Positions 10,431-29,888 of a stretch of 64,000 nucleotides of DNA are shown here, in pieces. Both the position numbers and the translations under genes were made by a program. How positions within the stretch are numbered: the stretch's first letter is position 1; each line of letters begins with the position of its first letter. The DNA comes from Phytoamicus setariae (GTDB lineage: Bacteria > Pseudomonadota > Alphaproteobacteria > Rhizobiales > Rhizobiaceae), in contig NZ_JAEQNC010000008.1 of NCBI RefSeq assembly GCF_016722925.1, forward strand, positions 62,001-126,000, written 5' to 3'. Under the pieces are notes generated by a model. It made no database searches and was not told the origin of the DNA. It was given only the letters and a program-made list of their open reading frames with translations.

Positions 10431-10826
10431 ATGGCGAAGACAATTCACTCGATGATCCGGGTTCTCGATGAACTGCAGTCGGTCGAATTCTATCGTCAGG
10501 CCTTCGGTCTGACTGTCGCCGATCGAATTGACTTCGAGACATTCACCCTCCTGTATCTGAGCAATCCAGAGACCACATTCGAACTGGAATTGACCGTCAA
10601 CAAGGATCGCGCCGAACCTTATGCGCTCGGCGATGGCTATGGACATCTGGCGGTTTCGGTTGAAGATATCGACGCCGAGCACCAGCGTCTGACCTCGCTC
10701 GGGCTCGCCCCCGGCAAGCTGGTGGATTTCAAACACGATGGCAAAACGCTGGCCCGGTTTTTCTTCATAAGCGATCCCGACGGCTACAAGATCGAAGTTC
10801 TACAGCGCGCGGGGCGCTACCTTTAG
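10431..10826 (+). CDS. Glyoxalase-I-like (VOC superfamily) protein
   Basis: 131 residues, two beta-alpha-beta-beta-beta halves of the vicinal oxygen chelate fold. Metal ligands expected for glyoxalase I are present: His6 (IHSMIRV), Glu in FELELTV, His in GYGHLAVSVEDID, Glu in YKIEVLQR. Family role: isomerising the glutathione hemithioacetal of methylglyoxal. Placed beside the monooxygenase locus it could detoxify methylglyoxal, a plausible by-product of acetone/acetol metabolism; that link is inference. Preceded by GGAGGG. Convergent and overlapping by 4 bp with the sigma-54 activator gene. Confidence 0.85.
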   Translation: MAKTIHSMIRVLDELQSVEFYRQAFGLTVADRIDFETFTLLYLSNPETTFELELTVNKDRAEPYALGDGYGHLAVSVEDIDAEHQRLTSLGLAPGKLVDFKHDGKTLARFFFISDPDGYKIEVLQRAGRYL

Positions 10827-12697
10827 GATGTATCGCGGACGTGTTTGTAAACGGTGGTTCGGGAGAGCCCGAGCTCGCGTGCCGTCCGTGATATGTTTTC
10901 GTCCGTTCTATGGTAGAGCAACCGGATTTCCTGGCATTTCGCCCGACTGAGGGGCCGGCTGCGGCAATCGTCGCAGCAATCCGACGAAAGTTGGACGACT
11001 GGGGTGTCGTCGTCAAAGCAGCCTTCATCAATGTATTCCGCGCGTCTGCGCGCCAGTGCGCGTTGCAGCACTGTTCTCAGCTCGCGGATATTGCCGGGCC
11101 ATTTCCTTTGCGCAAGCGCTGATATCGCCGCATCTGTCACAGGGGTGCCGGGCGCCATTTTCTCCATCAGATGGCGGACGACACTGGCGAAATCGGTACG
11201 GCTGCGCAATGGCGGCAGGCGGATCAGGAATGCGTTCAGCCGATAATAGAGATCGGCGCGGAACAGTCTTTGCGCCACCATGTCTTCGAGATCGCGATTG
11301 GTTGCCGAGACGATTTGCACATCGACCTTCTGTGCCTTCTGGCCACCGATGGCACGGATTTCCATACTGTCGAGAAAGCGTAGCAAAGATGTCTGCGCTG
11401 CCAGAGGAATGTCGGCCACCTCGTCGAGGAACAGCGTGCCGCGGTCGGCCGCACGTGCCAGCCCCGGTGAACCTTCCGCGCGGGCGTTGGTGAATGCCCC
11501 GCGCTCGTGGCCGAATATTTCGGCGATGAACAACTCCTCCGGCACCGCGCCGCAATTGACCGGCACGAATTCGCCCTTTCTGCCGCTCAGTCGATGGACG
11601 TGGCGCGCCATCAGTTCCTTTCCGGTGCCGGTTTCGCCGGTGACGTGCACCGGCATGCAGAGCGCGGCAGCCTCGGCCAGATCGTTGAGCGATCGCTTGA
11701 TCGCCGGATCGTCCGAGACGAAATCCGGTGCGTCCTCTTTCCTGACCAGCGCCGGAAGGGAAGGCGAGGAGCGCTTTGGCAACACTGTCCGGCGCTCGCC
11801 GATCTGGCGGCAGACCATGAAGACGCTACTACCGGCACGATCGCGAATGCGGACGACGCCGCCTTTGAGCAGACCGTCGACGGCTGGCCCGAAACCCGCC
11901 TCAAACAGGCTGTCGAAATGATTGCCGGATACCAGAGGCAGCCCCTGCAGCAAGGCCTTGCCCGGACGGTTGACCGACAACACTGCGCCATCGAGCGAAA
12001 CCGAAATAAGCCCCGCCGACAGCGTGTCGAGATATTCGACGCGCGGATGAAAGGCGAACACAAAGCTCTTGGATGCATCTTGGTAGATCAGGCCGTTCTC
12101 GATCTGGGCGGCGGCCATCCGCACCAATGCATGCGTGTGTTCCTGGCGCGCCTCATGGGCGCAGGATGCGTCGAGGAGCCCGAGAACCTCACCGTCTGAA
12201 TTGAAGATCGGCGCCGCCATGCAGCTGAGATGCCCATGGCAGGCGAAATAATGTTCCCTGCCATAGATCGCCACCGGCTTACCGGCCATGGCAGCGAGGC
12301 CTAGCGCATTGGTGCCGCGCTCGCTCTCATTCCACATGCTGCCGGGAATGATCGACCGGCCGGCGTCGCTGTCGGCGAAATGCTGGTCGCTGATCGTGTC
12401 GAGCACGATGCCCTCGGCATCGCCGAGCGCGATCATGAAATTCGAACCGGCGATCTGCGAATGAAGCAATTGCATCTCGGCCAAAGCCAGCAGCCGCATT
12501 GCGGCATTGGCTTCGCGTCGGCGCTTGACATCGGAAAATGCGACGACGCTGTGGCGCGGCGTTCCGCGCGGATCGAGATCGATATCGCGACAACGCTGCC
12601 AGCTGTCGGCCACGATCGGCTGCAAGGCGCCGACAGGAAACCTGTCGCCTTTTTCCAGCGCATTGCGGGCGCGGACTATTCCGGAAAGATGCTGCAT
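10823..12697 (-). CDS. AcoR-type sigma-54 activator upstream of the adh/prm genes
   Basis: 624 residues: N-terminal GAF-like sensory region (about 60-210), AAA+ domain about 325-545 with Walker A GETGTGKE and Walker B TLFLDE, then a Fis-type helix-turn-helix at the C-terminus (ISRTARELGLSRTTVYKHV). The sigma-54 contact loop reads GAFTNA (400-405) instead of GAFTGA. Divergent from adh, which has a -24/-12 promoter, so it is the prime candidate activator; comparable activators (MimR, PrmR) are known from mycobacterial and Methylocella loci. ATG at 12697 has GGAGGAGA upstream. Confidence 0.9.
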   Translation of the reverse strand: MQHLSGIVRARNALEKGDRFPVGALQPIVADSWQRCRDIDLDPRGTPRHSVVAFSDVKRRREANAAMRLLALAEMQLLHSQIAGSNFMIALGDAEGIVLDTISDQHFADSDAGRSIIPGSMWNESERGTNALGLAAMAGKPVAIYGREHYFACHGHLSCMAAPIFNSDGEVLGLLDASCAHEARQEHTHALVRMAAAQIENGLIYQDASKSFVFAFHPRVEYLDTLSAGLISVSLDGAVLSVNRPGKALLQGLPLVSGNHFDSLFEAGFGPAVDGLLKGGVVRIRDRAGSSVFMVCRQIGERRTVLPKRSSPSLPALVRKEDAPDFVSDDPAIKRSLNDLAEAAALCMPVHVTGETGTGKELMARHVHRLSGRKGEFVPVNCGAVPEELFIAEIFGHERGAFTNARAEGSPGLARAADRGTLFLDEVADIPLAAQTSLLRFLDSMEIRAIGGQKAQKVDVQIVSATNRDLEDMVAQRLFRADLYYRLNAFLIRLPPLRSRTDFASVVRHLMEKMAPGTPVTDAAISALAQRKWPGNIRELRTVLQRALARRRAEYIDEGCFDDDTPVVQLSSDCCDDCRSRPLSRAKCQEIRLLYHRTDENISRTARELGLSRTTVYKHVRDTS

Positions 12698-12921: not shown

Positions 12922-13974
12922 ATGAAGGCGCAAGTGCTAACGAAATACGACGACAGCCTGACGGCGGATCTGTGGGTGTCGCAGCAGGAGGTCGCCGATC
13001 CGGTGATCAGCAAATCGACCGACGTCATCGTGAGGATCGGTGGAGCCGGGGTCTGCCGGACGGATCTCCACATCATCGAAGGCGTCTGGCGGCCGCACAT
13101 GGACCCTGCCGGCAACAATCTCCTGCCGCTGATCATGGGCCATGAGAATGCCGGCTGGGTGGAGGCGATCGGCAAGGAGGTCGAAGGCATCAAGGTCGGC
13201 GATCCGGTCATTGTCCATCCCAAGATTTCCGGAGGGACGTGCCTGGCCTGCCGGCGCGGCTTCGACATGCACGGGCCGGGCAAGTTTCCAGGTCTGGACA
13301 GCAATGGCGGTTACTCGGAATATCTCTGCACGTCCGAGCGCAATATCGTGCCGCTGCCCAAGACCCTGTCGCCCAAGGAAGTCGCGCCGTATGCCGATGC
13401 CGGCTTGACCGCCTATAGGGCGGTCAAGAAAGCCACGCGGCACCTGCTGCCCGGCGAAACCTGCGTGGTCATTGGTGCCGGCGGGCTGGGCCATATCGGC
13501 GTGCAGTGCCTGAAAGCCATGTGCGCCGCCGACGTGATCGTAGTCGACAAATCCGAAGCGTCGCTGGCGCTGGCCGGCAAGAACGGCGCCGACAAGCTGG
13601 TCAAGGCCGATGGCAACGAAGTCGAAGCGGTGCTGCAGCTGACCAATGGCCAGGGCGCGGAAGCAGTGATCGATTTTGTCGGCGAACGCGGCACGACGAC
13701 CAAGGGCCTCGCCATGACCCGGCCGATGGGCAGCTATTATATTGTCGGCTACGGCGAGGACATCCGTATTCCGACCGTCGACATGGTGATCAGCGAGAAG
13801 AACATCATCGGCAACCTGGTTGGCACCTGGGCCGAGCTGGTTGAACTAATGGCGCTCGCCGATCGTGGTCTCGTCGACCTGACGACTGTCGAATACAAGC
13901 TGGCCGATGCCAACCAGGCGCTCAAGGACCTGCATAATGGCAAGATCCACGGCCGCGCGGTGCTTATCCCCTGA
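12922..13974 (+). CDS. adh: Zinc-type NAD-dependent alcohol dehydrogenase of the monooxygenase locus
   Basis: 350-residue MDR-family dehydrogenase. Catalytic zinc ligands are visible in GVCRTDLH and GHENAGWV; the Rossmann glycines are in VVIGAGGLGHIGVQ and VVDKSEASL gives the NAD-type acidic residue. The structural-zinc lobe keeps two of the usual four cysteines (CLACRRGFDMHG), so that zinc may be absent. Expected role: oxidise the alcohol made by the diiron monooxygenase (propanol, acetol or similar). Own sigma-54 promoter; GGAGGA ribosome site. Confidence 0.9.
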   Translation: MKAQVLTKYDDSLTADLWVSQQEVADPVISKSTDVIVRIGGAGVCRTDLHIIEGVWRPHMDPAGNNLLPLIMGHENAGWVEAIGKEVEGIKVGDPVIVHPKISGGTCLACRRGFDMHGPGKFPGLDSNGGYSEYLCTSERNIVPLPKTLSPKEVAPYADAGLTAYRAVKKATRHLLPGETCVVIGAGGLGHIGVQCLKAMCAADVIVVDKSEASLALAGKNGADKLVKADGNEVEAVLQLTNGQGAEAVIDFVGERGTTTKGLAMTRPMGSYYIVGYGEDIRIPTVDMVISEKNIIGNLVGTWAELVELMALADRGLVDLTTVEYKLADANQALKDLHNGKIHGRAVLIP

Positions 13975-14014
13975 GGCGAGCGACGCGCATCGCCATGGTG
14001 GCTGAGAGAACATT

Positions 14015-14045
14015 TGCTCCCCGCGACGACGCGCAGCGGGGAGCA
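14015..14045 (+). terminator. Stem-loop after adh
   Basis: Perfect 10-bp arms TGCTCCCCGC / GCGGGGAGCA enclose an 11-nt loop, 41 bp after the adh stop. There is no T-run, so this may be a processing or attenuation hairpin rather than a simple terminator. It separates adh from the ribbon-helix-helix gene. Confidence 0.6.
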
Positions 14046-14084
14046 TTCGGCGTGAATCTGACAAACCACGGGAGGAGAGGAGAG

Positions 14085-14378
14085 ATGATGTGCAGGGTTT
14101 TGACCGCGCAGAGCACGCAACGGTTTAACAAAGTCAGCCGTTCGGTGAGGATATCGGGGCATTCGACCAGTGTCCGGCTGGAGGCGGCCTTCTGGCAGGT
14201 GCTCGAGGACATCGCAAGAATGGAGGGGCTTTCGACCTCCAAGCTGATTTCGGAACTTTATGACGAAGCGCTGGAACTGCATGGCGGCATGTCCAACCTC
14301 GCATCCATGCTACGCACCGTCTGTCTTATCTATCAGGAAGAGTGCCGCGCAGTCGTCGCTTTGCCGCGTGCGGGCTGA
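14085..14378 (+). CDS. Ribbon-helix-helix (RHH_4-type) DNA-binding protein
   Basis: 97 residues from an ATG preceded by GGAGGAGAGGAG. The core SRSVRISGHSTSVRLEAAFW followed by ARMEGLSTSKLISELYDEA is the RHH_4 domain typical of small alphaproteobacterial proteins: a DNA-contacting beta strand and two helices. Same strand as adh and prmA, between them. Possibly a small repressor or modulator of the locus; targets unknown. A longer frame upstream lacks a ribosome site and overlaps the stem-loop. Confidence 0.82.
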   Translation: MMCRVLTAQSTQRFNKVSRSVRISGHSTSVRLEAAFWQVLEDIARMEGLSTSKLISELYDEALELHGGMSNLASMLRTVCLIYQEECRAVVALPRAG

Positions 14379-14426
14379 TACGAACATCGGCCGTAGTTAT
14401 GAGGCTGCGGCCGATATCTTCGCTTC

Positions 14427-14609
14427 TCAGTTAACCTTTCGGTCGGGCACGGCGTCGGCGCGGCCTTCAGCAATCCAGCGCGCGCCGAGCACCAGTGCGC
14501 CCGCGCTGAATTCCTTGCCATGCGCGGCGACCATCTCCTCGGACAGTTTCGCTATTTTCTCGAAGAAGGCGTCCTTGCTCTTGTCTTCGGCGGTAAGTTC
14601 GGTCTCCAT
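14427..14609 (-). CDS. Small hypothetical protein, last gene of the unknown divergent operon
   Basis: 60 residues (METELTAEDKSKDAFFEKIA ... DRKVN), mostly helical and charged; no family recognised. The ATG at 14609 has the leader GGAGGATAGA immediately upstream, identical to the leader of the beta-propeller gene before it, which argues that it is a real gene of the same operon. Starts 30 bp after the stop of that gene. Confidence 0.6.
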   Translation of the reverse strand: METELTAEDKSKDAFFEKIAKLSEEMVAAHGKEFSAGALVLGARWIAEGRADAVPDRKVN

Positions 14610-14639
14610 TCTATCCTCCATTGTCGGCTACGATGATTG

Positions 14640-15755
14640 CTATTTGAAGATCTGTTCGGGGAAGGTGATGACGGCGGCGCTGCCGAGTACATCACCGGCG
14701 GCGAGATGGCGGCCATCGGCCGACCAGCGAAGCACGGTCACCGGCCCGCCCGCGTTGCGGATCGTCAGTTCCTCGGATGAACCGATTCTGGCGACGGCGA
14801 TCCGGCCGTTCGCATAGCCCGCCGCCACCAGTGGCTTTTGCGGGTGGGCGGCGATTGCGTTGGCGATCACGAAGCCGGCGCGGCCAGCCGCCAAAGCGCC
14901 GGTAGCGCTATTCTCGAATGGCGGCGTCTGCATCGACCATCCGGCGATACGGTAGGCGCCCGAGGCGAAAAATCCGCTGGATGGCGGGCTCCAGCCCAGC
15001 GAGGCGACCGGGCCGGGAAAGTCACCGAGCATCACCTGGCGCCCGGTCTCCGTGTCCATCAGGCAGAACCCGCCGCTCAGCAATCCGCACGCCAGCCATC
15101 TGCCATCCGCACTCCAGGTCAGTGATAGCGGTCTGGCGGAGAGCTGGATCGCATGAAGCCGCTGGCAATCGCTATCCGTGCGGCGGACGGCTAGCATGTC
15201 CGTTCCGGCCAGCGCGATGCGTGCACCGTCATCGGAGATGGCGATGATCTCGGCGGTCGTGACGCCAAGGTCCACTTCATTGATCTGGCCGCTTTCAATG
15301 GATTGCAATCTCAGTCGGTCATGGACGATGGCTGCCGTCAGATCAGTTCGCAGACAATGGTCGAAGGCAGAGATCGGGGTTTTGTCCGCCAGTACCTTCG
15401 CATCGATCTCGCCGGAGCGGTTGATGCGCAGCAATTCGCCGTTGGCAGTGAGGATCATGAAGTCCCCGTTGCCACCTGCCGAAAGGCCCTGGCCACCTTC
15501 TATGCGGGTCTTGATCAGCGGCGACGGCCGACCCTCGCGCGGCCTGATCGTCGTCTGGCGGTCGTCGACCACGATCCGCGAATCCGGCGGCTCGTTGTCG
15601 GCCAGGCGTGCCAGCGCCACGCTGCCGTCGGCAGACGATATCGCCAGCAGCGTATCGTCGCTGTTGAAGAAGAGCCGCTCGATGGCTGCGCGGCTCTGCC
15701 AGGTGCGCGCCAGGAGATCGAACAGGGTTATGTTGGGTATGGTCTGCTGGTTCAT
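14640..15755 (-). CDS. WD40-like beta-propeller protein of unknown function
   Basis: 371 residues with no signal peptide. Repeated blade-like units are visible: LLAISSADGSVALARL, MILTANGELLRINRSG, LSLTWSADGRWLACGLLSGG, VASLGWSPPSSGFFASGAY and VTVLRWSADGRHLAAGDVLG, consistent with a cytoplasmic propeller used as a protein scaffold. Third gene of a four-gene minus-strand operon; its GGAGG site overlaps the end of the coiled-coil gene upstream (stop 4 nt away). Function unknown; its place suggests a role in assembly or control of the monooxygenase, an inference only. Confidence 0.75.
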   Translation of the reverse strand: MNQQTIPNITLFDLLARTWQSRAAIERLFFNSDDTLLAISSADGSVALARLADNEPPDSRIVVDDRQTTIRPREGRPSPLIKTRIEGGQGLSAGGNGDFMILTANGELLRINRSGEIDAKVLADKTPISAFDHCLRTDLTAAIVHDRLRLQSIESGQINEVDLGVTTAEIIAISDDGARIALAGTDMLAVRRTDSDCQRLHAIQLSARPLSLTWSADGRWLACGLLSGGFCLMDTETGRQVMLGDFPGPVASLGWSPPSSGFFASGAYRIAGWSMQTPPFENSATGALAAGRAGFVIANAIAAHPQKPLVAAGYANGRIAVARIGSSEELTIRNAGGPVTVLRWSADGRHLAAGDVLGSAAVITFPEQIFK

Positions 15756-15756
15756 T

Positions 15757-16071
15757 CTATCCTCCACGTGCCGCCGCGATCAACCTGTCGAGCACCGCGA
15801 CATCTTCTTCCGCTGCCGCGATTTCCTCTGCGCAAGCGGCCTGGGCCTCCCGCATCGTCTCGACACTGTCCTCGATCTGATGCAATTCCTGCGCCAGTTG
15901 CGCATTGCCAGGATTTCGGCCGATCTCGAGTTCGATCCGCAGCACGTCCATCTCCATCCCGGAGGTGGCCTGACTAAGCTTCATGGCCTTGGCGGTGAGG
16001 GCGGAAACTTCCGCGACGCGCTCGACGCGGCGACGCAGCAGATCCAGAGCATCTAGGTCCGGGGCGCTCAT
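15757..16071 (-). CDS. Coiled-coil hypothetical protein
   Basis: 104 residues, almost entirely helical with heptad-like spacing of Leu/Ala/Glu (LDALDLLRRRVERVAEVSAL; LAQELHQIEDSVETMREAQA; EEDVAVLDRLIAAARGG), so likely a helical hairpin. No family recognised. The ATG overlaps the TGA of the preceding gene (ATGA), and its stop abuts the start of the propeller gene, so the three are co-translated and may form a complex. Confidence 0.68.
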   Translation of the reverse strand: MSAPDLDALDLLRRRVERVAEVSALTAKAMKLSQATSGMEMDVLRIELEIGRNPGNAQLAQELHQIEDSVETMREAQAACAEEIAAAEEDVAVLDRLIAAARGG

Positions 16072-16514
16072 GACCAGCCCTCCGGAGACTTCCAGGCTTC
16101 CAGAATCTGAGGGAGTTCAGGCAGTTGCGTCCGGAACTGGCTTTCGGCCATGCTGATATGGTTGCGGAGCTGGTCCCAGACATCGACCCGGATCATCGTG
16201 TCTCCGGTCAGCTGTTCGATGTCCTCGACGCGAAACTGCCGCGACAGCGACACGCCGGAGAACACGAATTCGCGCAGCATCAGCGCGTGTTTTTCCGCGA
16301 AGGCATGCAGCAACGGGTGGGTCTCGGGCGTTGCCCCCGTGATCGCCAGTTCTTTCAGGATGAATTGCTGAAAATGGTTCTGCATCAGGTGCTGGCTTTC
16401 GCCGATGAAGCGCATCACGAACACCAGGTCGCGCTGCATGAGTCTGGCCAGCACCGTGGTGACGTCACCCTCCACTCCGCCAAGGGGGATCGGATTTTCC
16501 TTGCTGTCTGTCAT
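16068..16514 (-). CDS. Hypothetical helical protein, first gene of the unknown divergent operon
   Basis: 148 residues beginning MTDSKENPIPLGGVEG, then mainly helical (TTVLARLMQRDLVFVMRFIG, HFQQFILKELAITG, HALMLREFVFSG). No signal peptide or membrane segment and no family recognised. ATG at 16514 chosen because GGAAGA lies 5 nt upstream; the frame continues upstream without support. It is transcribed away from prmA and shares the roughly 500-bp control region with it. Confidence 0.68.
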   Translation of the reverse strand: MTDSKENPIPLGGVEGDVTTVLARLMQRDLVFVMRFIGESQHLMQNHFQQFILKELAITGATPETHPLLHAFAEKHALMLREFVFSGVSLSRQFRVEDIEQLTGDTMIRVDVWDQLRNHISMAESQFRTQLPELPQILEAWKSPEGWS

Positions 16515-16654
16515 GATGTCTTCCAGATTCAGTATGCGGCTCGATTGAGCGATTGAGAAAATATAATTCAAGAATAAAAAATGTCTATCGTGATTTATTC
16601 ATAATTCTCAATCAAGTACTTCTGAAGTTTCAAGGTATATGTAATGTTGCATTT

Positions 16655-16682
16655 GTAAATTACGATTGTAACGTAAATTTAC
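16655..16682. promoter_or_regulatory. Near-perfect palindrome, candidate upstream activator site
   Basis: Arms GTAAATTACG (16655-16664) and CGTAAATTTAC (16672-16682) are inverted repeats with one extra A and a 7-bp spacer. The site is AT-rich in a GC-rich region and centred about 80 bp before the -12 element of the prmA promoter, the normal distance for an enhancer site of a sigma-54 activator. It could equally serve the divergent unknown operon or bind the RHH protein. Palindrome seen; role inferred. Confidence 0.55.
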
Positions 16683-16734
16683 ACTCACGGAATTTCGACT
16701 GTTGTCAAATGCCGGAAGTAACGTGCTTTCAAAC

Positions 16735-16750
16735 TGGCACGCCCCTTGCA
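16735..16750 (+). promoter_or_regulatory. Sigma-54 (-24/-12) promoter of the prmABCD operon
   Basis: TGGCAC-N5-TTGCA at 16735-16750 is an exact match to the sigma-54 consensus. It lies 265 bp upstream of the chosen prmA start, giving an untranslated leader of about 250 nt. No convincing gene fills the leader. Confidence 0.92.
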
Positions 16751-17015
16751 TCGTCTCTGGCATAAGAAGCCATCGCGTTGAAGCGACGCTAGAAGAACGA
16801 AGGAGTGGGAGAGCCGTTTCGATAATCCGGGCCGAGGAGTGCCCGGCTGCTTTTCCAGATTACCTTTGCCGTGATCCACTTGAATGGTCCGACCATCGTC
16901 GCGCCCTGGCGCAACCCTTTGTCGTGCCGTTCCAACTTTCGCTCGCGGTGCGCACGGCGCCGTTCCAGCCGGGGCCGGGAGGCCCGCGGTTCAAACACAG
17001 TGGAGGCTGATGACG

Positions 17016-18683
17016 ATGTCGTCTTTGACACTCAACAAGATCACCTCGCAGCGCGGTATTTCCGTTGGCGAGGCAACCAAGAAGATCTCCGACCTCGGTT
17101 GGAATCCCACCTATGTCCAGGAAGCGATGACGTTTCCGACCGACTACAAGATCACCAAGGCGCCGCGCGATCCGATGAAACAGGTGCTGCGCTCCTATTT
17201 CCCCATGCAGGAGGAAAAGGACAACCGTGTTTATGGTGCGCTCGATGCTGCCCTGCGCGGCGACATGTTCCGCAATGTCGAACCCCGCTGGGTCGAGTGG
17301 ATGAAGCTGTTTCTGGCGATCATTCCGTTCCCGGAAATCTCGGCCGCCCGCTCCATGGCCATGGTGGCGCGTATCGCGCCTGGCGAAGACCTGCGTACAG
17401 GTTTCACCATGCAGATGGTGGACGAGTTCCGTCATTCGACCATCCAGATGAACCTGAAAAAATGGTACATGGAAAACTATATCGACCCGGCAGGCTTCGA
17501 TATCACCGAGGAAGCGTTCGGCAAGTGCTATGCCACGACGATCGGCCGGCAATTCGGCGAAGGCTTCATCACCGGCGATGTGATGACCTCCGCCTGCATG
17601 TACCTGACTGTCGTTGCTGAAACCGCGTTCACCAACACGCTGTTCGTCGCCATGCCCTCTGAAGCCGCTCGCAATGGCGACTATGCGCTGCCGACCGTAT
17701 TCCTGTCGGTTCAATCCGACGAAAGCCGTCACATCGGCAATGGCCACTCGCTGCTGATGGCGGCGCTGAAAGAGCCGGAGAACCACCTGCTTCTCGAGCG
17801 TGACCTGCGTTACTCCTTCTGGCAGAACCACGCGATCGTCGATGCCGCCATCGGTACATTCATCGAATACGGCACCACCAATCGCGACAAGAACAAGGAA
17901 TCCTATGCGGAAATGTGGCACCGCTGGATCTTTGAGGATTACTACCGCACCTACATGCTGCCGCTCGAAAAATACGGCATCAAGGTTCATCATGACGATG
18001 TTCATGAAGCCTGGAACCGCATCACCAAGAAGCACTATGTCCATAAGGTCGCACAGTTCTTCGCGGTCGGCTGGCCAGTCAATTTCTGGCGCATCGAAGC
18101 CCAGCGCGACGCCGATTTCGAATGGTTCGAGCACAAGTATCCGGGCTGGTATGCCGAGTTCGGCGATTTCTGGAAATGGTATGACAAGCTCAGCCATCGC
18201 GGCGAGAAGATCATCACCTTCAACGAGGAAACCGGCTACGTCTACCCGCATCGATGCTGGAGCTGCCTCGTTCCCTGCCTGATCCGCGAGGACATGGTGG
18301 TCGACGAGATCGACGGACAGCTGCACACCTTCGCCCATGAGCTCGACCGCTGGACCGCCGTCGAGGCCTTCGCCGACGAATATCAGGGCCGTCCGACACC
18401 GGCGATGGGCCGCTTTAGCGGCAAGCGCGAGTGGGAAACCCTCTATCACGGTTGGGATCTCGCCGATGCCATCAAGGATCTCAACTTCGTGCGTTCCGAC
18501 GGCAAGACGCTCGTGCCACAGCCGCATCTGCGTTTCGACGGCAAGGACATGTGGACGCTGGACGACGTGCGTGGCCACACGCTGCAATCGCCGCTGAAGA
18601 TCCTGCGCGACATGTCGCCGGACGCGCGTGAAAAGCACCTCGCCGAATACCGCGCGGGCTTCACCATCACGCCTTTCAATTGA
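17016..18683 (+). CDS. prmA: Soluble diiron monooxygenase hydroxylase large subunit (propane/phenol/acetone type)
   Basis: 555 residues, catalytic alpha subunit of a group V-type SDIMO; hydroxylates small alkanes, ketones or phenols with O2. Diiron ligands are visible as Glu107 (PFPEISA), Glu137/His140 (DEFRH), Glu202 (VVAETAF) and Glu236/His239 (DESRH), giving the usual E-ExxH-E-ExxH set. Gene order A-B-C-D then amidohydrolase, DUF59 and GroEL matches PrmABCD/MimABCD loci. I chose the ATG at 17016 (9 nt after GGAGG); an ATG at 17010 is too close to it. True substrate needs assay. Confidence 0.93.
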   Translation: MSSLTLNKITSQRGISVGEATKKISDLGWNPTYVQEAMTFPTDYKITKAPRDPMKQVLRSYFPMQEEKDNRVYGALDAALRGDMFRNVEPRWVEWMKLFLAIIPFPEISAARSMAMVARIAPGEDLRTGFTMQMVDEFRHSTIQMNLKKWYMENYIDPAGFDITEEAFGKCYATTIGRQFGEGFITGDVMTSACMYLTVVAETAFTNTLFVAMPSEAARNGDYALPTVFLSVQSDESRHIGNGHSLLMAALKEPENHLLLERDLRYSFWQNHAIVDAAIGTFIEYGTTNRDKNKESYAEMWHRWIFEDYYRTYMLPLEKYGIKVHHDDVHEAWNRITKKHYVHKVAQFFAVGWPVNFWRIEAQRDADFEWFEHKYPGWYAEFGDFWKWYDKLSHRGEKIITFNEETGYVYPHRCWSCLVPCLIREDMVVDEIDGQLHTFAHELDRWTAVEAFADEYQGRPTPAMGRFSGKREWETLYHGWDLADAIKDLNFVRSDGKTLVPQPHLRFDGKDMWTLDDVRGHTLQSPLKILRDMSPDAREKHLAEYRAGFTITPFN

Positions 18684-18784: not shown

Positions 18785-19870
18785 ATGGCTGACGCACAAA
18801 AAGCACATCAGCACGCGCACAAGGTGCGCCTCGAACCGGTCGGCGTCGAATTCGAGGTCGAGAACGGCGAAACGGTTCTGAACGCCGCATTCCGCCAGGG
18901 CATCGCTTTGCCGCATGGCTGCAAGGAGGGACAGTGTTCTGCCTGCAAATGCGTGCTGCTCGATGGCGAGGTCGACTTGCTGAAATACTCGACTTTCGCG
19001 CTCAGCGAAATGGAAAAAGATTCCGGACATATTCTGCTCTGCCGAGCCATCGCCTTTTCCGACATGGAAGTGGAACTTCTCAACTACGATGAGGAGCTGC
19101 TGGCAAAGGCGATTGCCGTCAAGAGTTACAACGGCCGGATCTCTCGTTTCGAGAAGCTGACCCACGATATCAGAGGCATCGAAATCGAACTCGGTTCCCC
19201 AATCAAATTTTGGGCGGGACAGTATGTCGACATCACGGTCACCACGGAAGAAGGGGAGACGATTACGCGCTCGTTCTCCATGGCAAATACGCCGAGCGAA
19301 ACCCAGAAACTCTCGTTCATCATCAAGAAATACCCAGAAGGAAAGTTCTCCGGCGAACTTGATTCCGGAGGTATTCGGGTCGGAGCCGAGGTCTCCGTCG
19401 TCGGACCCTACGGAACCTGCTTTCGACGGGAAGACCGACAGGGACCATTAGTATTGGTGGGTGCCGGCTCGGGCATGTCGCCGGTCTGGTCGATCCTCAA
19501 TGATCACCTCGCCAGCGGCGAAGAGCGTCCGGTCTATTTCTTCTATGGCGCCAAGACGGAGGACGATCTTTTCCACCTCGACAGGATCGCGGACCTGATC
19601 GCTCGCTATCCCGACGTGACCTTCATCCCGGTCCTTTCGCATGCCGACGAGAATGGTGGCTGGACCGGCGAGCGCGGCTTCGTGCACCAGAGCGTCGACG
19701 CCAAGCTCAAGGAGTTGGCGGTGGATGGCGAGGGCGACGTCTATGCCTGCGGCCCGCCGCCGATGATCGATGCGCTGCAGCCGGTGCTATTCATGAACGG
19801 CTTCGAATCCGAGCGCATCTTCTTCGACAAATTCACGACTTCGTCCGGTGGAGGAACGCCGGGTCACTAG
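18785..19870 (+). CDS. prmB: Monooxygenase NADH reductase component
   Basis: 361 residues. N-terminal plant-type [2Fe-2S] ferredoxin domain (about 12-105) with CKEGQCSACKCVLLDGE and the fourth cysteine in ILLCRA; then FAD domain with RSFSMANTP and an NAD domain with LVGAGSGMSPVWSIL and YACGPPPMIDAL. Passes electrons from NADH to the diiron hydroxylase. ATG at 18785 preceded by GGGAGA; an upstream in-frame ATG would begin right behind prmA and covers the stem-loop. Confidence 0.93.
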   Translation: MADAQKAHQHAHKVRLEPVGVEFEVENGETVLNAAFRQGIALPHGCKEGQCSACKCVLLDGEVDLLKYSTFALSEMEKDSGHILLCRAIAFSDMEVELLNYDEELLAKAIAVKSYNGRISRFEKLTHDIRGIEIELGSPIKFWAGQYVDITVTTEEGETITRSFSMANTPSETQKLSFIIKKYPEGKFSGELDSGGIRVGAEVSVVGPYGTCFRREDRQGPLVLVGAGSGMSPVWSILNDHLASGEERPVYFFYGAKTEDDLFHLDRIADLIARYPDVTFIPVLSHADENGGWTGERGFVHQSVDAKLKELAVDGEGDVYACGPPPMIDALQPVLFMNGFESERIFFDKFTTSSGGGTPGH

Positions 19871-19953: not shown

Positions 19954-21012
19954 ATGGCAGCAATATCGAGTTCGGTCGGGTCGGGTGCGGCCGGGGCCGC
20001 CATCTTCGCCGATTCCGACAGCCGGAAATACCGATATTTCGACCCGAAGGGTCAGCGGGCCACCCATTATGAAGACGTTACCGTCGATGTCCAACCGGAC
20101 CCGGAACGCTATCTGATCCAGAACTGGATCATCTCCTTCGCCAACGGCAAAGGTGCCTATGTCAAGGAGAACACAGCGGCCCAGAGCTCCAACTGGCACG
20201 CCTTCCGCGCGCCGGATCAGGAGTGGGAACGCACCCACTATCAGCGCCAGTCGAAGATCGAGACCATGGTGCAGAGCGTCATCACCAATGCCCGCCGCGC
20301 TGGCGCGCCAAAAGCCTTCGACAAGGTCTGGATCAAGATACTGCAGGCCCATCTTGGCGCATGGAAACACGCCGAATTCGGCCTCGGCACCTCGCTGATG
20401 CAGGCGCAGCGCTATGGCTATACCCAGATGATCAACAACGCCACGCTGACCAACTCGTCCTATAAGCTGCGCCTTGCCCAGGATATCACGCTCTATCTCG
20501 CCGAAATTGGCATGGATATTCCGGGCTGGGACGACGAACTCGGCAAGAAGCATTGGCTCGAGGACGGCATCTGGCAAGGCACGCGCGAAGCCATCGAGAC
20601 GATCATGGGCACCACCGATTATCTCGAACAGTATTTCGCCATCAATATCATCTTCGAACCGATGGTCGGCGAACTGTTCCGCTCCGGCTTCTTGATGCAG
20701 GCGGCGGCGGCGAACCACGACTTCATCACCCCGCCGGTGATTTCGGCTGCCGAGGCCGACTACGAGCGCAATCTCGCCAACACGATCGACCTCATCTACC
20801 TGCTTGCTAACGACGAAAAGCATGGCGCCGCCAATCGAAAACTTTTCCAGGGCTGGGTCAGCAAGCATGCCGCACTCGCGGACAAGGCGGCGCTCGGCCT
20901 TCAGCCGATATGGTCGATGCCGCATTCCAAGCCGATTTCGTTTCCCGATGTTCGTGCCCAGTCCGAAGAGCGGGTTGGCCAGATTCTCGGCGAACTCGGC
21001 CTCAAGCGTTAA
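19954..21012 (+). CDS. prmC: Monooxygenase hydroxylase small (beta) subunit
   Basis: 352 residues, non-catalytic ferritin-like partner of PrmA in the (alpha-beta)2 hydroxylase. It shows family segments (RKYRYFDPKGQRATHYEDVT near the N-terminus; AQRYGYTQMINNATLTNSSY; FAINIIFEPMVGELFRSGF) but lacks the ExxH iron ligands. ATG at 19954 with GGGAGTGAGA upstream. Confidence 0.92.
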   Translation: MAAISSSVGSGAAGAAIFADSDSRKYRYFDPKGQRATHYEDVTVDVQPDPERYLIQNWIISFANGKGAYVKENTAAQSSNWHAFRAPDQEWERTHYQRQSKIETMVQSVITNARRAGAPKAFDKVWIKILQAHLGAWKHAEFGLGTSLMQAQRYGYTQMINNATLTNSSYKLRLAQDITLYLAEIGMDIPGWDDELGKKHWLEDGIWQGTREAIETIMGTTDYLEQYFAINIIFEPMVGELFRSGFLMQAAAANHDFITPPVISAAEADYERNLANTIDLIYLLANDEKHGAANRKLFQGWVSKHAALADKAALGLQPIWSMPHSKPISFPDVRAQSEERVGQILGELGLKR

Positions 21013-21029: not shown

Positions 21030-21398
21030 ATGTCATCAGTCGCACGCGACGCGTCGCAGTCTAACATCTTCAAGTCGATGAAGGAAATCACTTTCGAGCA
21101 GACGATTTCCCACCAGTGTGGCGTCACCATGAGCGACTCGGTCGAGGCTCGCGCCATCGCCGAATTCATGGGCACGAAGCCGGGGGTCACCGTTACCTAC
21201 GCGCCGGCAATGATCCGCATCGACGGCAACGGCAAGCTGATCTTCCGGATGGACGAGATCAGCGAATATCTCGGCCGTGAGATGACCGCCGAGATCTTCG
21301 AGGTCAACACGTCCACCCACTATGGCCGCATGGTCCGGATCGACGACAACGAGGTCATCCTGTTCGGCGATATGGACGAGGTCTTCGAATATATTTGA
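21030..21398 (+). CDS. prmD: Monooxygenase coupling (effector) protein
   Basis: 122-residue MmoB/DmpM-type effector that binds the hydroxylase and tunes electron transfer and substrate access; it has no cofactor. Family core SHQCGVTMSDSVEARAIAEF and VTYAPAMIRIDGNGKLIF. Begins 17 bp after prmC with AGGAGA upstream. An N-terminal tail of about 25 residues precedes the folded core, as in other members. Confidence 0.92.
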   Translation: MSSVARDASQSNIFKSMKEITFEQTISHQCGVTMSDSVEARAIAEFMGTKPGVTVTYAPAMIRIDGNGKLIFRMDEISEYLGREMTAEIFEVNTSTHYGRMVRIDDNEVILFGDMDEVFEYI

Positions 21399-21468: not shown

Positions 21469-22491
21469 ATGTTCATCACACCAGAAGGCAAGGAAATATT
21501 CATCGTCGACGGCCACACCCATTTCTGGGACGGCAGTCCGGAGAACCAGCGCAATATTCACGGCAAGCAGTTCGTCGAGTGCTTCTACGGCTACCACACA
21601 TCGCTGAGCCCCAAGGAACAGCTATGGGAAAAGAGCAAGTTCGAGAAATACAGCGCCGACGATCTTTATCGCGACCTGTTCATCGACGGCCCAGATGACG
21701 TGGCCATCATCCAGTCGACATACCTCAAGGACTTCTACAAGAACGGCTTCAACACGATCGAGCGCAATGCCGAGGTGGCCAAGCGCTACCCTGAACGCTT
21801 CATCGTCAATGGCTCGTTTGATCCGCGCGACGGCGACAAGGCGCTGGAATACATCCACTGGATGAAGGAGACCTACGACATCAAGGGCGTGAAGATGTAC
21901 ACGGCCGAATGGAACGGCGCTTCGAAGGGATGGCGGCTCAATGATCCCGCCGCCTACAGGTGTTTCGAGCTTTGCGAAAAGCTGGGTATCAAGAACGTCC
22001 ATGTCCACAAGGGGCCGACGATCATCCCGCTCAACAAGGATGCGTTCGATGTTCATGATGTCGACTACGTAGCCACCGATTTCCAGAACCTCAACTGGAT
22101 CGTCGAACATTGCGGATTGCCACGGCTGGATGACTTCTGTTGGATCGCCGTGCAGGAAACCAATGTCTATGGCGGCCTGGCAGTAGCGCTGCCGTTCATC
22201 CATTCAAGGCCGCGCTACTTCGCCGAAATCATTTCCGAACTGTTGTTCTGGGTCGGTCCGGAAAAGATCCTGTTCGGGTCTGATTATGCGATCTGGACAC
22301 CGCGCTGGCTGGTGGAAAAGTTCTGGGCCTTCGAATTGCCTGAGGACATCAAGCAGGAGAGGGGCGTCGATCTGACGCCGGAAATCAAGGAGAAGATCCT
22401 GGGTCTCAATGCGGCGCGTCTCTACGACATCGATATCGCCGCGAAGAAGGCCGCACTCGCCGGTTCATCCTTCAACGTTGCGGCGGAGTAA
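21469..22491 (+). CDS. Amidohydrolase-family (metal-dependent TIM-barrel) protein of the prm operon
   Basis: 340 residues, amidohydrolase_2-like. Metal-binding HTHFWDG at the N-terminus, KNVHVHKGP in the barrel and LFGSDYAIWTP near the C-terminus carry the expected His and Asp ligands. A homologue sits in the same position in known prm/mim loci, but its function there is not settled; hydrolysis or decarboxylation of a pathway intermediate is possible. Preceded by GGAGGC. Confidence 0.87.
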   Translation: MFITPEGKEIFIVDGHTHFWDGSPENQRNIHGKQFVECFYGYHTSLSPKEQLWEKSKFEKYSADDLYRDLFIDGPDDVAIIQSTYLKDFYKNGFNTIERNAEVAKRYPERFIVNGSFDPRDGDKALEYIHWMKETYDIKGVKMYTAEWNGASKGWRLNDPAAYRCFELCEKLGIKNVHVHKGPTIIPLNKDAFDVHDVDYVATDFQNLNWIVEHCGLPRLDDFCWIAVQETNVYGGLAVALPFIHSRPRYFAEIISELLFWVGPEKILFGSDYAIWTPRWLVEKFWAFELPEDIKQERGVDLTPEIKEKILGLNAARLYDIDIAAKKAALAGSSFNVAAE

Positions 22492-22496
22492 GGGTG

Positions 22497-23306
22497 ATGA
22501 ACGCCGTCAATCTGTCAGAAAGCCGCCAGGGGGAACTCTGGCGGCGCCTCGAAGGGGTCAATGATCCCGAGCTGGATGAGCCGGTGACGGATATGGGTTT
22601 CATCGAGCGCGCCGAGATTGCCGCCGATGGCCGGGTCGATGTCGGGTTCCGGCTGCCCACATACTGGTGCTCGCCGAATTTCGCCTTTCTGATGCTCGAT
22701 GATGTCAGGAATGCGCTCGACGCCCTCAGCTGGTCGCCGGCCTATCGTCTCACCCTGCATGACCACATGTTTGCCGAAGAGGTGAACTCGGGCATTGCCG
22801 AGGGCAGGAGCTTCGCGGAGATTTTTGCGGGACTTGCGGAGAACACCGACCTTGAGGATTTACGGGAGAAGTTTCGGCTCAAGGCGTTCAAGCGTCGGCA
22901 GGAAGCGGTCATCCTCGACCTCAAAAAACTCGGGATCGCAGACAGCGAGATCGTCAGGGTGACGTTTTCAGTTTTTGACGCGATCATCGCCGGCAGCGAC
23001 GAGGCCAGAAAACGCAAGGCACGCTATCGCCAGGCTCTGCTTCAGCGGTGGCCCGATTTACGCGCACAGGATACCGCAATCGTCGATTACGACGGCGAGC
23101 GCATCGCCGCTGCGGGGCTTTCCGCCCATCTTGCCGATCTCCGCAGCGTCCGGATCAACATGGAGTTCAACGGCGCGCTTTGCCGGGGGCTCAAGCAGAC
23201 GCGCTACAAGGAAATGGAAATGGTCGATGGTGAGCCGACGCTGGTCGATTTCATCCTGGACCGGGTTCCTGCATCCGGCGAGCGGGCGCAGTCAAGCAGC
23301 AACTAA
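22497..23306 (+). CDS. DUF59 / MIP18-like metal-sulphur cluster assembly protein
   Basis: 269 residues. The N-terminal 100 residues are the DUF59 fold (GVNDPELDEPVTDMGFIERAEI, then VGFRLPTYWCSPNF with a cysteine in the usual place). The longer C-terminal part is helical and of unknown fold. Found with SDIMO clusters, where a role in supplying or repairing metal centres is plausible but unproven. ATG at 22497 follows the amidohydrolase stop by 5 bp; a GTG one codon earlier is equally possible. Confidence 0.82.
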   Translation: MNAVNLSESRQGELWRRLEGVNDPELDEPVTDMGFIERAEIAADGRVDVGFRLPTYWCSPNFAFLMLDDVRNALDALSWSPAYRLTLHDHMFAEEVNSGIAEGRSFAEIFAGLAENTDLEDLREKFRLKAFKRRQEAVILDLKKLGIADSEIVRVTFSVFDAIIAGSDEARKRKARYRQALLQRWPDLRAQDTAIVDYDGERIAAAGLSAHLADLRSVRINMEFNGALCRGLKQTRYKEMEMVDGEPTLVDFILDRVPASGERAQSSSN

Positions 23307-23372: not shown

Positions 23373-25004
23373 ATGCCCAAACTGATGTTACACAATTCCG
23401 AAGCGCGTCGCGCGCTTGCCCGGGGCGTCGCGAAGCTGGCCGCCGCGGTGGAGCCCACTCTCGGCCCGAAAGGGATGAACGCGATGATCGACCGACCGCT
23501 CGGGACACCGATGGTGACCCGCGACGGCGTCTCCATCGCCTCGGAAATCGAACTGCATGACCGCTTCGAGAATATGGGTGCGCAGGTGGTGCGCGAGGTC
23601 TCCATGCAAACCAACGAGATCGCCGGCGACGGCACGACGACAGCCATCGTGCTTGCCAATGCGCTGGTACAGAAGGGCATCGAAGCCAATGAGCGCGGCG
23701 TTAAATCCGTCGATCTCTGCAAGGGGATCGACCTTGCCGTGGACAGGGTGGTGAAAGCACTGAAGGCCGGTGCCAAACCCGCGAAAGGCAATGGCGCGCT
23801 TGCAGCCGTCGCCAACATCGCCGCCACCGACCCGAAGCTGGGTGCCTTGGTGGCGGAAGCCTACGAACGGGTCGGTGCCGATGGCATCATCACCACCGAT
23901 TTCAGCGTGACGATCGAGACGACGCTGGATGTGGTCGAGGGCATGTCCTTCGAACGCGGCTATCTCTCGCATCACATGGTCACCAACCAGGAGAAGATGG
24001 AGGCCGTGCTCGAACGCCCCCTGATCCTGATGACGGATCTCAAGATCAGGGAGCCGTCGGCTCTCGATGCGGTACGCCGCATTGCCGACAAGGCCGGTCG
24101 GCCGCTGCTGATCGTGGCGGAGGAAGTGTCGCCCGAGGTGGTCGTCACATTGCTCGGCAAGCAGGGACCGGGGAAATACCTGGTCGTGCATCCGCCGGAA
24201 TATGGCCATTGGCGAAAGGCGATGCTGGAGGATCTGGCGATCCTGACCGGCGGCCGGGTGATCGCCCGCGATCTCGGCGGTCAGATCGAGGATGTCACGG
24301 CAGAAGATCTCGGCTCCGCTGAGCGCGTTCGGACGAGTTCGACCTATACCACGATCGTTCGCGGCGGTGGTGATCCCGCAGCCATCATCGCACGCAGGGC
24401 ACAGGTGCAACGGCAGTTCGAGGTCGCCCCGCCCAATATCGAGCAAGACAAGCTGCGCGAACGCCTGGCCAAGCTTTCGGGCGGCACGGCGGTGCTCTAT
24501 GCCGGCGGGGTGACGCCGGTCGAACAGAAGCGGACGATCCAGCTGATCGAGGATTCGCTGCACGCGGTCCGAGCGGCTGCGGAGGAAGGCGTGGTGGCCG
24601 GTGGCGGCTCCGCCCTTGCCCAGATCGCGCCGGTGCTCGATGCCTTGATTGCCACTGCGGATCATGATGTGGCGGAGGGCATCCGCCTCGTGCAGTCAGT
24701 GCTGACGCGGCCGCTCTGGCGGATCGCCACCAATGCCGGCGGCGATCCCGAAGCGATCATCGCCGAAGTCACGCGCGTCAACAGCGGCCATGGCTTCAAC
24801 GCATCGATCGGAAAGTACGAAAACATGATCAATGCCGGCATTATCGATCCGGTGCGCGTGACCTACACCGCGCTGTGCAATGCAGCTTCGGTCGCCAAGC
24901 TCATTCTGACAACCGAGACGCTGATCGGCGATCTCGCGGAGAACGAGGATCCGACTGCAGGCCCCGCACTCGGTGGCGGCGCGGAGAGGCTTGGCCGCGC
25001 GTGA
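23373..25004 (+). CDS. groEL: Dedicated GroEL-like chaperonin of the monooxygenase operon
   Basis: 543 residues, Hsp60 fold with ATP-site segments LGPKGMNAMID, AGDGTTTAIVLANAL and EEGVVAGGGSAL. It differs from housekeeping GroEL: the C-terminal Gly-Gly-Met tail is missing (ends GGGAERLGRA) and the apical domain is divergent. No groES is next to it. In mycobacterial mim and Gordonia prm systems the equivalent GroEL-like protein is required for active hydroxylase, and the same role is expected here. GGAGGAG ribosome site; last gene of the operon. Confidence 0.92.
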   Translation: MPKLMLHNSEARRALARGVAKLAAAVEPTLGPKGMNAMIDRPLGTPMVTRDGVSIASEIELHDRFENMGAQVVREVSMQTNEIAGDGTTTAIVLANALVQKGIEANERGVKSVDLCKGIDLAVDRVVKALKAGAKPAKGNGALAAVANIAATDPKLGALVAEAYERVGADGIITTDFSVTIETTLDVVEGMSFERGYLSHHMVTNQEKMEAVLERPLILMTDLKIREPSALDAVRRIADKAGRPLLIVAEEVSPEVVVTLLGKQGPGKYLVVHPPEYGHWRKAMLEDLAILTGGRVIARDLGGQIEDVTAEDLGSAERVRTSSTYTTIVRGGGDPAAIIARRAQVQRQFEVAPPNIEQDKLRERLAKLSGGTAVLYAGGVTPVEQKRTIQLIEDSLHAVRAAAEEGVVAGGGSALAQIAPVLDALIATADHDVAEGIRLVQSVLTRPLWRIATNAGGDPEAIIAEVTRVNSGHGFNASIGKYENMINAGIIDPVRVTYTALCNAASVAKLILTTETLIGDLAENEDPTAGPALGGGAERLGRA

Positions 25005-27271: not shown

Positions 27272-27350
27272 ACGGCTATCACATCCACGCTCGAGGGAAC
27301 TGACGTCAAACATCGTATTCTGCAAGTGAGAGGCGCTGTGCTTATCGCGC

Positions 27351-27833
27351 TTACGTCTCGGGAGGAATATCGAGCCGGAGACCGATGTCGGTCGCCAGGT
27401 CTGCGCCTGAGTAGGACGGGCCCAGCACGACACCGTCAATATCGGCCAGCGCCTCGGTCTTCGCCTCGTCCAACGGTGCGATGAAGCCGTTGGCCGTCGT
27501 CGCCAGAACGAAAATCTTCAGGCCTCGCCGGTCGCGGATGTCGCCGAAATGCTGCAACTGGCGCCCGGAGGGAACATCGACGGCGATGACGCGGCCATTG
27601 GTGGTGAGCCGGATTTTCGGCTCCGGTTCGGGAGCCGGTTTAGCAGAACCGCCTATATGGATGATCAGCCCTTCGGCTTGGGGCAATTGCTTCGGTTTCT
27701 TCGATTCCGAATAGCGGCCGCCACTGAACTGGTCCGCGAGCTGCGTGATCACGCCCCGGTTCTGCTGCAGTAAGCGCCTGACTTGCGCGTCCTCCCGACG
27801 CGGGCCGTCATGCTTAGAAAAAATCTCGACCAT
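27351..27833 (-). CDS. Hypothetical protein upstream of the second activator
   Basis: 160 residues (MVEIFSKHDGPRREDAQVRR ...), no signal peptide, a Pro/Glu-rich middle (PAPEPEPKIRL) and a beta-rich C-terminal half ending LRLDIPPET. No family recognised. Same strand as the activator, ending about 80 bp upstream of its start, so the two may be co-transcribed. GGGAGGG precedes the ATG, which supports it being a real gene. Confidence 0.6.
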   Translation of the reverse strand: MVEIFSKHDGPRREDAQVRRLLQQNRGVITQLADQFSGGRYSESKKPKQLPQAEGLIIHIGGSAKPAPEPEPKIRLTTNGRVIAVDVPSGRQLQHFGDIRDRRGLKIFVLATTANGFIAPLDEAKTEALADIDGVVLGPSYSGADLATDIGLRLDIPPET

Positions 27834-28922: not shown

Positions 28923-29861
28923 ATGAAGAGCGTTCGATCCATTTGCTTTGCGACAGCTGCGTTAGTGACTGTGGCTTTCGGGCCAACCCTGGGTGCGGCG
29001 GCGCCGCTTGGCGATGCAGACGCCCCTATTCGAATTGCATTGAACGAATGGACCGGGCAGAATATTACCGCCCATCTCGCTGGCCAACTCCTCGAAAAGC
29101 TCGGATACAAGGTTCAATACCAGACCGCCGGCGCGTTCCCGCAGTGGATCGGCATGCAGGACGGCTCGATCGACATGACGCCGGAACTGTGGACCAATAA
29201 CCTCGGCGATATCTATCCCAAGATGCTTGCGGCAAAAGAGGTCGAAGTCGTTGGCGATCTCGGCCTCAATGCGCGCGACGGCTGGGGTTACACGGATGCG
29301 ACCAAGGAGGCTTGCCCGGGCCTGCCGGATTGGAAGGCCTTGCTGGAACCTTCTTGCGCCGCTGCATTGGCAACAGCCGAAACGCTTCCCAACGGTCGCC
29401 TCCTCGACTATCCGGCCGATTGGGGTACGGCCTCAGCCAATGAGATTGCAGATTTCAAGCTCCCAATGACGGCTGTACCGGCTGGTTCGGAAGGTGCCCT
29501 TGTCGCCGAACTCCAAGCGGCTGCTGCGGCCAACAAGCCTCTGCTGATGCGGTTCTGGGCTCCGCATTGGATTCTGACAAAGGTCAAACTCAACTGGCTC
29601 GACATGCCGCCGTGCGACGCGAAAGACGGCGCACGCTGCATCCTGCCGTCGCCGGTGATCAAGGTGGTTCGTGCAGACTTCGGCAAGAAATGGCCCGCCG
29701 CCTATGATTTCATGAAGCTCTACCAGCTCGGCGCCGACGATCAGCAAAAAATGATTGCAGAGGTCGACCAAGACAAGAAAGAGATCGGCGCCGTTGTCGC
29801 GGCATGGATCGGTGCGAATTCTGCTCGTTGGTCCCCCTCGATTGATGCTGCGAAAAAGTAA
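28923..29861 (+). CDS. proX: Glycine-betaine-type ABC transporter substrate-binding protein
   Basis: 312 residues, signal peptide MKSVRSICFATAALVTVAF through GAAA, then an OpuAC/ProX-type fold (IRIALNEWTGQNITAHLAGQ, WIGMQDGSIDMTPELWTNN). Aromatic residues expected for a cation-pi cage around a quaternary amine are present (several Trp, such as in RFWAPHWIL). AAGGAGA ribosome site. First gene of the TetR-controlled operon. Ligand could be a betaine, choline-like or another cationic zwitterion. Confidence 0.87.
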   Translation: MKSVRSICFATAALVTVAFGPTLGAAAPLGDADAPIRIALNEWTGQNITAHLAGQLLEKLGYKVQYQTAGAFPQWIGMQDGSIDMTPELWTNNLGDIYPKMLAAKEVEVVGDLGLNARDGWGYTDATKEACPGLPDWKALLEPSCAAALATAETLPNGRLLDYPADWGTASANEIADFKLPMTAVPAGSEGALVAELQAAAAANKPLLMRFWAPHWILTKVKLNWLDMPPCDAKDGARCILPSPVIKVVRADFGKKWPAAYDFMKLYQLGADDQQKMIAEVDQDKKEIGAVVAAWIGANSARWSPSIDAAKK

Positions 29862-29888
29862 GCCGATCGCAATCATCGGAGAGCCGCT

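Follow-up and report, generated by a model that had tools for sequence, protein, structure and literature searches.

Soluble diiron monooxygenases (SDIMOs) oxidise propane, acetone, methane and pollutants, and foreign hosts produce them only with difficulty. A GroEL-like protein is required for active diiron monooxygenase, according to the available part of PMC7994243, and this requirement points to assembly as a bottleneck. A related actinobacterial Mim cluster is linked to acetone hydroxylation in the accessible text of PMC7176365, and genes of COG0523 subfamily 5 cluster with WD40 genes and znuABC (Haas et al. 2009, PMC2770081, in excerpt). Here we describe a set of four minus-strand genes, genes 1 to 4, lying between an alcohol dehydrogenase gene (adh) and prmA, the gene for an SDIMO hydroxylase large subunit, in a 64,000-nucleotide stretch of Phytoamicus setariae (contig NZ_JAEQNC010000008.1, positions 62,001 to 126,000). 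The whole stretch is called the window below, and positions are counted from its first letter. The set is real, conserved, specific and apparently undescribed, and constitutes a new accessory module of a known kind of enzyme.

A four-gene set tied to one monooxygenase type

Relatives of the four genes were counted in 97 loci, made up of the window, 6 family loci, 10 plasmid loci and the 80 best relatives from a genome scan for gene 4; this collection holds at least five duplicates (G045/L060, G064/L093, G073/L062, G080/L076 and G176/L061). The genes are:

16068..16514, minus strand: gene 1, 148 aa, mostly helical, no known family; relatives in 83 of 97 loci
15757..16071, minus strand: gene 2, 104 aa, coiled coil, poorly conserved; relatives in 93 of 97 loci
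14640..15755, minus strand: gene 3, 371 aa, WD40 beta-propeller related to the WD40 proteins that partner COG0523; relatives in 94 of 97 loci
14427..14609, minus strand: gene 4, 60 aa, the most conserved member, no family; relatives in 95 of 97 loci

The genome scan, which covered 84,980 species genomes with a profile, two short peptide patterns and tblastn and detects only relatives matching one of the two patterns, gave 211 relatives of gene 4, of which the best 80 were examined. In these 80 loci tblastn found prmA, at a distance of no more than 10 kb, in 78, gene 3 in 79, groEL in 74, gene 1 in 71 and gene 2 in 66; the conserved neighbourhood with the hydroxylase that characterises an SDIMO accessory module is thus present in 78 of 80. 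The two loci without prmA, L038 and L108, stand on contigs that begin no more than 0.5 kb from the gene 4 match. The first-pass annotation had placed the set with the monooxygenase, and the survey bears this out, as the 80 best homologues do not occur mainly far from monooxygenases. On the same linkage we reject the idea that gene 3 is a generic WD40 protein with accidental neighbours.

Smaller genome draws agree. Gene 1 is found in 7 of 199 genomes of the family and prmA in the same 7, and in all six carriers other than the window genome the four genes stand together, divergent from prmABCD. The gene 4 profile matches 5 of 299 genomes of the phylum and prmA matches 4 of 299, the same four; the fifth gene 4 match (G808, 24 aa, E 5e-4) was taken as chance, and the short locus scanned around it (L118) has no match to window genes. 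These two draws are not independent, because genomes G000 and G073 are common to both and the four phylum carriers are the window genome and three members of one genus. In a draw of 385 genomes of the class, gene 1 occurs once, in the window genome itself. A class draw of 260 gave prmA at E<=1e-60 in four genomes. Besides the window genome these are one with 75% identity and two with 31-33%, the last two taken for other SDIMOs; among the four, gene 4 is in the window genome only.

The set is found in many Alphaproteobacteria and some Betaproteobacteria. Its core is the coiled coil, the propeller and the 60-aa protein, gene 1 being sometimes missing, and its most constant partners are prmABCD and groEL. 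It is tied to one type of diiron monooxygenase, Prm/Mim, where "Prm/Mim type" serves as a label for relatives of the window cluster, because the match of its coupling protein to MimD (110 bits) lies under the cut-off of 150.

At the level of the genes themselves, the first-pass annotation proved exact for the four tightly packed open reading frames (ORFs), their sizes and their junctions. Genes 1 and 2 are joined by an ATGA overlap, a single base separates the stop of gene 2 from the start of gene 3, and identical GGAGGATAGAATG leaders stand at 15765 and 14619, with no other copy of the 13-mer on either strand of the 64 kb. This spacing fits an operon. Genes 2-3-4 follow one another in the same order and on one strand, less than 200 bases apart, in 93 of the 93 loci that hold all three (a count that includes the window and at least five loci present twice under different ids), which makes the four-gene arrangement more than chance.

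All four genes are under purifying selection and are genuine coding genes. Compared with relatives in L034, L033 and L040, their ratio of nonsynonymous to synonymous substitution rates (dN/dS) is 0.06-0.30, at dS of 0.8-1.7, near saturation; five closer pairs give 0.07-0.35, with two exceptions for gene 4, a zero in one pair and an undefined value in a second. In 6 of 8 comparisons the lowest ratio is that of gene 4. These ratios and the kept gene order speak against chance ORFs, a reading that we rejected. Gene 3 diverges fast, with 44-46% identity in six family relatives versus 92-95% for PrmA. Gene 1 carries conserved acidic and His residues (D29, E39, H47, H66, H76, E100, D111, D114 and H119).

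The orientation of the set is variable. In 84 of 93 loci besides the window, gene 3 is divergent from prmA; in 7 it lies upstream of prmA and in 1 downstream, co-directional in both cases, and 1 locus has no prmA. Caballeronia zhejiangensis, where gene 1 was not found, has the core immediately ahead of prmA and on its strand. Next to gene 2, and often between it and gene 1, the other strand may encode an extra protein of ~90 aa, which has profile matches in 30 of 97 loci (examples are L025 10504-10779, L026 10880-11155, L027 7200-7475 and L032 10787-11050). This count includes two matches that look spurious (L039 and L042), a partial one (L024) and two duplicated loci (L014/L093 and L015/L060). 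The protein is absent from the window and was rejected as part of the set.

The set belongs with a single branch of the enzyme family; SDIMOs in general do not require it. We surveyed 52 plasmid records with an SDIMO large subunit, binned by identity to the window PrmA; gene 4 records numbered 13 overall. Gene 4 is in 10 of 10 records at 83% PrmA identity or more, including one from Shinella, and in 0 of 34 below 65%. In Shinella HZN7, prmA is interrupted by an IS21 element. Neither Azospirillum (L030) nor Methylocella (L031) has any of genes 1-4, while Skermanella (L122 16295-17051) has gene 4 and an unrelated 88-aa protein after groEL, genes 1-3 not being found there. In a PrmA tree of 25 of 92 sequences (after dereplication), which leaves 12 of its 22 inner forks open and contains two branches of great length, the rows for Azospirillum, Methylocella and Skermanella fall together at an unstarred fork (92/100). 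Rhodoblastus (L099) has genes 2-4, prmABCD and groEL, and the amidohydrolase and iron-sulphur (FeS) assembly genes that are part of the window cluster were not found in its 20 kb. In Rhizobium CB3171 the end of prmA abuts gene 3 from residue 76, and prmBCD to groEL remain; in Phyllobacterium zundukense gene 3 lacks its first ~32 residues, annotated ISL3 transposases are near, and there is no prm in 24 kb. These two (L125 and L126), which make up the remainder of the 13 gene 4 records, we read as decayed prm loci.

The prm cluster and its control region

The genes around the set are:

10823..12697, minus strand: GAF-domain sigma-54 activator, beyond adh as seen from the set
12922..13974, plus strand: adh, alcohol dehydrogenase, named from annotated relatives
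14085..14378, plus strand: ribbon-helix-helix protein, convergent with gene 4 (PF13467, 90 bits)
17016..18683, plus strand: prmA, hydroxylase large subunit (PF02332, 1.3e-60), start picked by eye from the leader
18785..19870, plus strand: prmB, reductase
19954..21012, plus strand: prmC, hydroxylase small subunit, named from annotated relatives
21030..21398, plus strand: prmD, coupling protein (the under-cut-off match to NCBIfam MimD given above)
21469..22491, plus strand: amidohydrolase-like protein
22494..23306, plus strand: FeS-assembly-like protein (PF01883)
23373..25004, plus strand: GroEL-like chaperonin, likened to MimG/MmoG by its position alone

A second sigma-54 activator (GAF, AAA+, Fis) lies past groEL on the opposite strand, at 25193-27439. 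Relatives of the ribbon-helix-helix protein also occur near the prm genes of L030 and L031, both without genes 1-4. Further along the window are a glycine-betaine-type ATP-binding cassette (ABC) transporter set (28923-33022) and a cytochrome P450 (38181-39377). Annotated copies of rpoN (sigma-54) stand beside prm in three Rhodobacterales (L025 6491-7777, L026 7828-9090 and L027 10183-11442), and in two of these a protein of about 320 aa stands beside gene 4 (L025 7864-8829 and L027 9146-10099), the two being alike by eye.

Between gene 1 and prmA we find:

16735..16750, plus strand: sigma-54 -24/-12 promoter TGGCACGCCCCTTGCA, perfect, directed towards prmA only
16650..16685 (limits approximate), plus strand: conserved block of TTACA/TGTAA half-sites, recognised by eye
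16560..16587, minus strand: best sigma-70-like site towards gene 1, TAGACA-16-TATATT, 10/12, a consensus match only

The first of these is the sole sigma-54 site with no more than one mismatch in a scan of the 64 kb. We compared it with the regions of 82 relatives, a number that counts duplicates, out to 900 bases from gene 1. Of the best sites facing prmA, 68 have 0 mismatches, 10 have 1, 3 have 2 and 1 has 3; of those facing gene 1, 2 have 2 mismatches, 16 have 3 and 64 have 4-5. The half-site block, ~50-90 bases upstream of the sigma-54 element and by eye common to the nine loci displayed, is likely an activator site. A scan for sigma-70-like sites over 14000-17200 on both strands gave 5 sites versus 1.1 in shuffles.

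The first-pass annotation held that the set shares the control region of prmA. The region is indeed common to both units, but a common switch is not supported, as the sigma-54 site faces prmA alone. We therefore reject co-regulation from one sigma-54 promoter, a site with 0-1 mismatch facing prmA in the window and in 78 of 82 relatives and gene 1 in none. Thus, the set and prmA probably share a region and not a switch.

A propeller related to COG0523 partners

Family assignment is informative for gene 3 alone. Genes 1, 2 and 4 have no match above the family cut-off in Pfam or NCBIfam, where for gene 2 the scan used just the window protein, and PHROGs gives none at E 1e-3 either. Gene 2 has at most weak coiled-coil-type matches (best E 0.014), PDB profile searches with genes 1 and 4 gave 0 matches at E<=1, and a fold search with gene 1 gave no clear match. 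None of genes 1-4 matches an SDIMO component family (hydroxylase, reductase or coupling protein), in agreement with the first-pass annotation, which had recognised no SDIMO component among them and had correctly paired a coiled coil (gene 2) with a propeller (gene 3). The latter exceeds the curated cut-offs for WD40 (PF12894, 46.0 bits against 22.9; PF00400, 38.0 against 27). Its AlphaFold2 model has a predicted local distance difference test score (pLDDT) of 93.1 and a predicted template modelling score (pTM) of 0.91, and in a fold search of the PDB it gave 1890 matches at E<=0.001 with WD40 proteins at the top, consistent with a propeller fold. NCBIfam scans of 15 gene 3 proteins gave weak matches only, to two families, one matched by 2 of the proteins and the other by 1. 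A six-frame search of the window genome with PF00400 gave 0 matches and missed gene 3 itself, so it is useless as a count of WD40 proteins.

The gene 3 profile matches 57 of 61 family genomes. With two Prm loci set aside, 59 matches score 84-146 bits and the next 8 rows 44 bits or less, which sets the 59 above other WD40 proteins of the same genomes. We inspected 29 of these 59, namely 28 with loci (125-146 bits) and the window genome's own. In 27 of the 28 loci a COG0523/CobW GTPase gene lies upstream on the same strand, and the remaining locus begins at a contig end; the gap between the GTPase and WD40 genes is below 80 bases in 23, 230-375 in 3 and ~1 kb in L144. The second gene 3 match of the window genome (117 bits; L016) also adjoins a COG0523 GTPase (PF02492, 5.2e-61), the two genes standing back to back at L016 8379-10459, and this WD40 partner is widespread in the family. 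Gene 3 of Caballeronia matches 12 non-Prm plasmid records; six of six inspected follow a gene annotated as "GTP-binding protein", a CobW domain was confirmed in all four scanned, and three adjoin zinc/metal transporter genes.

In a profile-profile comparison, gene 3 and the COG0523 partners match at E 1.8e-36, collinear over 317 columns, and the Caballeronia gene 3 is a bridging sequence, scoring 243 bits against the partner profile. The repetitive WD40 protein 2ymu of the PDB reaches 127.8 bits, summed over 5 stretches, and because this summed score is similar, the relatedness is best claimed within Pseudomonadota. Judged by eye, gene 3 has two non-repeat features in common with the partners, SGA..W and the P-ELG/GAL-TG stretch; unlike them, it has a longer N-terminal part with a conserved TIRPR loop. 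The partners themselves presumably belong to subfamily 5, going by the description in PMC2770081.

Proposed function and known systems

We tentatively propose, at a little less than even chance, that genes 1-4 encode a set of factors dedicated to the assembly (maturation) of the PrmABCD hydroxylase. The proposal draws its support from the specific linkage to prmABCD and groEL, which survives changes of layout. The propeller, which would descend from the WD40 partner of a COG0523 metallochaperone GTPase linked to zinc, or be its sister, would act as a docking platform. The products of genes 1, 2 and 4 (the helical, coiled-coil and 60-aa proteins) would be adaptors that keep hold of the newly made hydroxylase, or of the form of it bound to GroEL, during the joining of subunits and metal. 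A propeller recruited from a metallochaperone setting may thus now serve hydroxylase assembly beside the cluster's GroEL. We infer that the four proteins form a complex, contact PrmA and involve metal. The first-pass annotation had suggested a cytoplasmic scaffold for assembly, sensing or localisation; these options are not separable here, but assembly is the better guess, because gene 3 is related to metallochaperone-linked propellers.

A bolder version is doubtful: that a duplicate of a WD40 propeller linked to a zinc chaperone was put to new use and, joined by three new small proteins, forms a machine dedicated to metal insertion into the diiron monooxygenase. Such a machine would be part of the reason why expression in foreign hosts is hard. 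To our knowledge, no earlier such machine is known for SDIMO enzymes.

The main alternative, which we consider rather unlikely, is a sensing or regulatory module in which the propeller complex binds the sigma-54 activator, or substrate or metal, and sets prm expression. The set has no inducible sigma-54 promoter, as expected for a pre-made sensor; moreover, it lies 14 bp after a sigma-54 activator gene in Bradyrhizobium CB82 and 10 bp from a dedicated rpoN in Paracoccus aminophilus, and an rpoN copy is also near the set in Gemmobacter and Ponticoccus. In the window, however, the activator stands beyond adh, and the Caballeronia core is placed directly before prmA. WD40 propellers as such can signal, but the four proteins contain no DNA-binding or signalling family over cut-off.

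Less probable still is a structural role, in which the set would be a scaffold that gathers the mature monooxygenase, adh and further enzymes of the pathway into a cluster or at one place in the cell. A coiled coil with a propeller, small tightly packed partners and the lack of any enzyme family found among them would suit such a role, yet a relative of the window adh occurs in just 24 of the 80 loci within the stretches examined (three of them weak, at 25-27% identity), whereas prmA and groEL are nearly constant. The least probable of the alternatives, and in our view improbable, is an MmoD-like regulator of the finished hydroxylase, which would for instance inhibit or protect the resting diiron enzyme. 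The close linkage to the enzyme, the promoter match of sigma-70-like type only, and the small conserved gene 4, which in Skermanella is found after groEL without genes 1-3, are in its favour, but none of the proteins matches any SDIMO component or regulator in sequence.

Several observations weigh against an assembly factor set built on a metal-linked propeller. At E<=1e-6 there is no COG0523 gene in the 97 loci tested, so that the metal link of gene 3 is one of ancestry only; by position, too, gene 3 departs from the COG0523 partners, with no COG0523 GTPase directly ahead of it in these loci. Genes 1, 2 and 4 have no relative among the 1646 ORFs of 35 COG0523-WD40 loci, and gene 3 has no Cys or His conserved in at least 85% of 36 sequences. 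The set is without a promoter of the prmA type. Gene 4 is in 1 of 8 plasmid records at 75-80% PrmA identity (Skermanella) and has no match in G225, with PrmA at 75%; since PrmA relatives at 75-80% are mostly without the set, not every such enzyme needs it. Likewise, the sole actinobacterial mim-like cluster inspected (L123), with amidohydrolase, FeS gene and GroEL, is without the set.

The four genes are a direct candidate for a missing factor in the production of soluble diiron monooxygenases in foreign hosts, and the building of the diiron site becomes testable through their addition or removal.

The first-pass annotation considered the set its best candidate for an undescribed system, and we found no description of it in the open-access literature, searched by titles and abstract starts and with subscription papers outside the scope; nor did searches of that literature turn up a paper that mentions WD40 together with propane monooxygenase or soluble di-iron monooxygenase. 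Three known systems come closest. AztD is a zinc-transfer beta-propeller that handles metal and is often near CobW-family genes, and it is periplasmic or at the cell surface (PMC6689063, in part), its likeness to gene 3 being by fold class only. MmoD of soluble methane monooxygenase is a small non-catalytic protein encoded with a diiron hydroxylase, which it is said to bind (PMC7994243, in the portion available); genes 1, 2 and 4 have no family match, and the likeness is by description, without direct alignment. The GroEL-like chaperonins MmoG and MimG are, like the set, accessory genes of SDIMO clusters, as far as the available text of PMC7994243 goes. They differ from the set in fold and sequence, and a GroEL-like gene is present besides the set in 74 of 80 loci.

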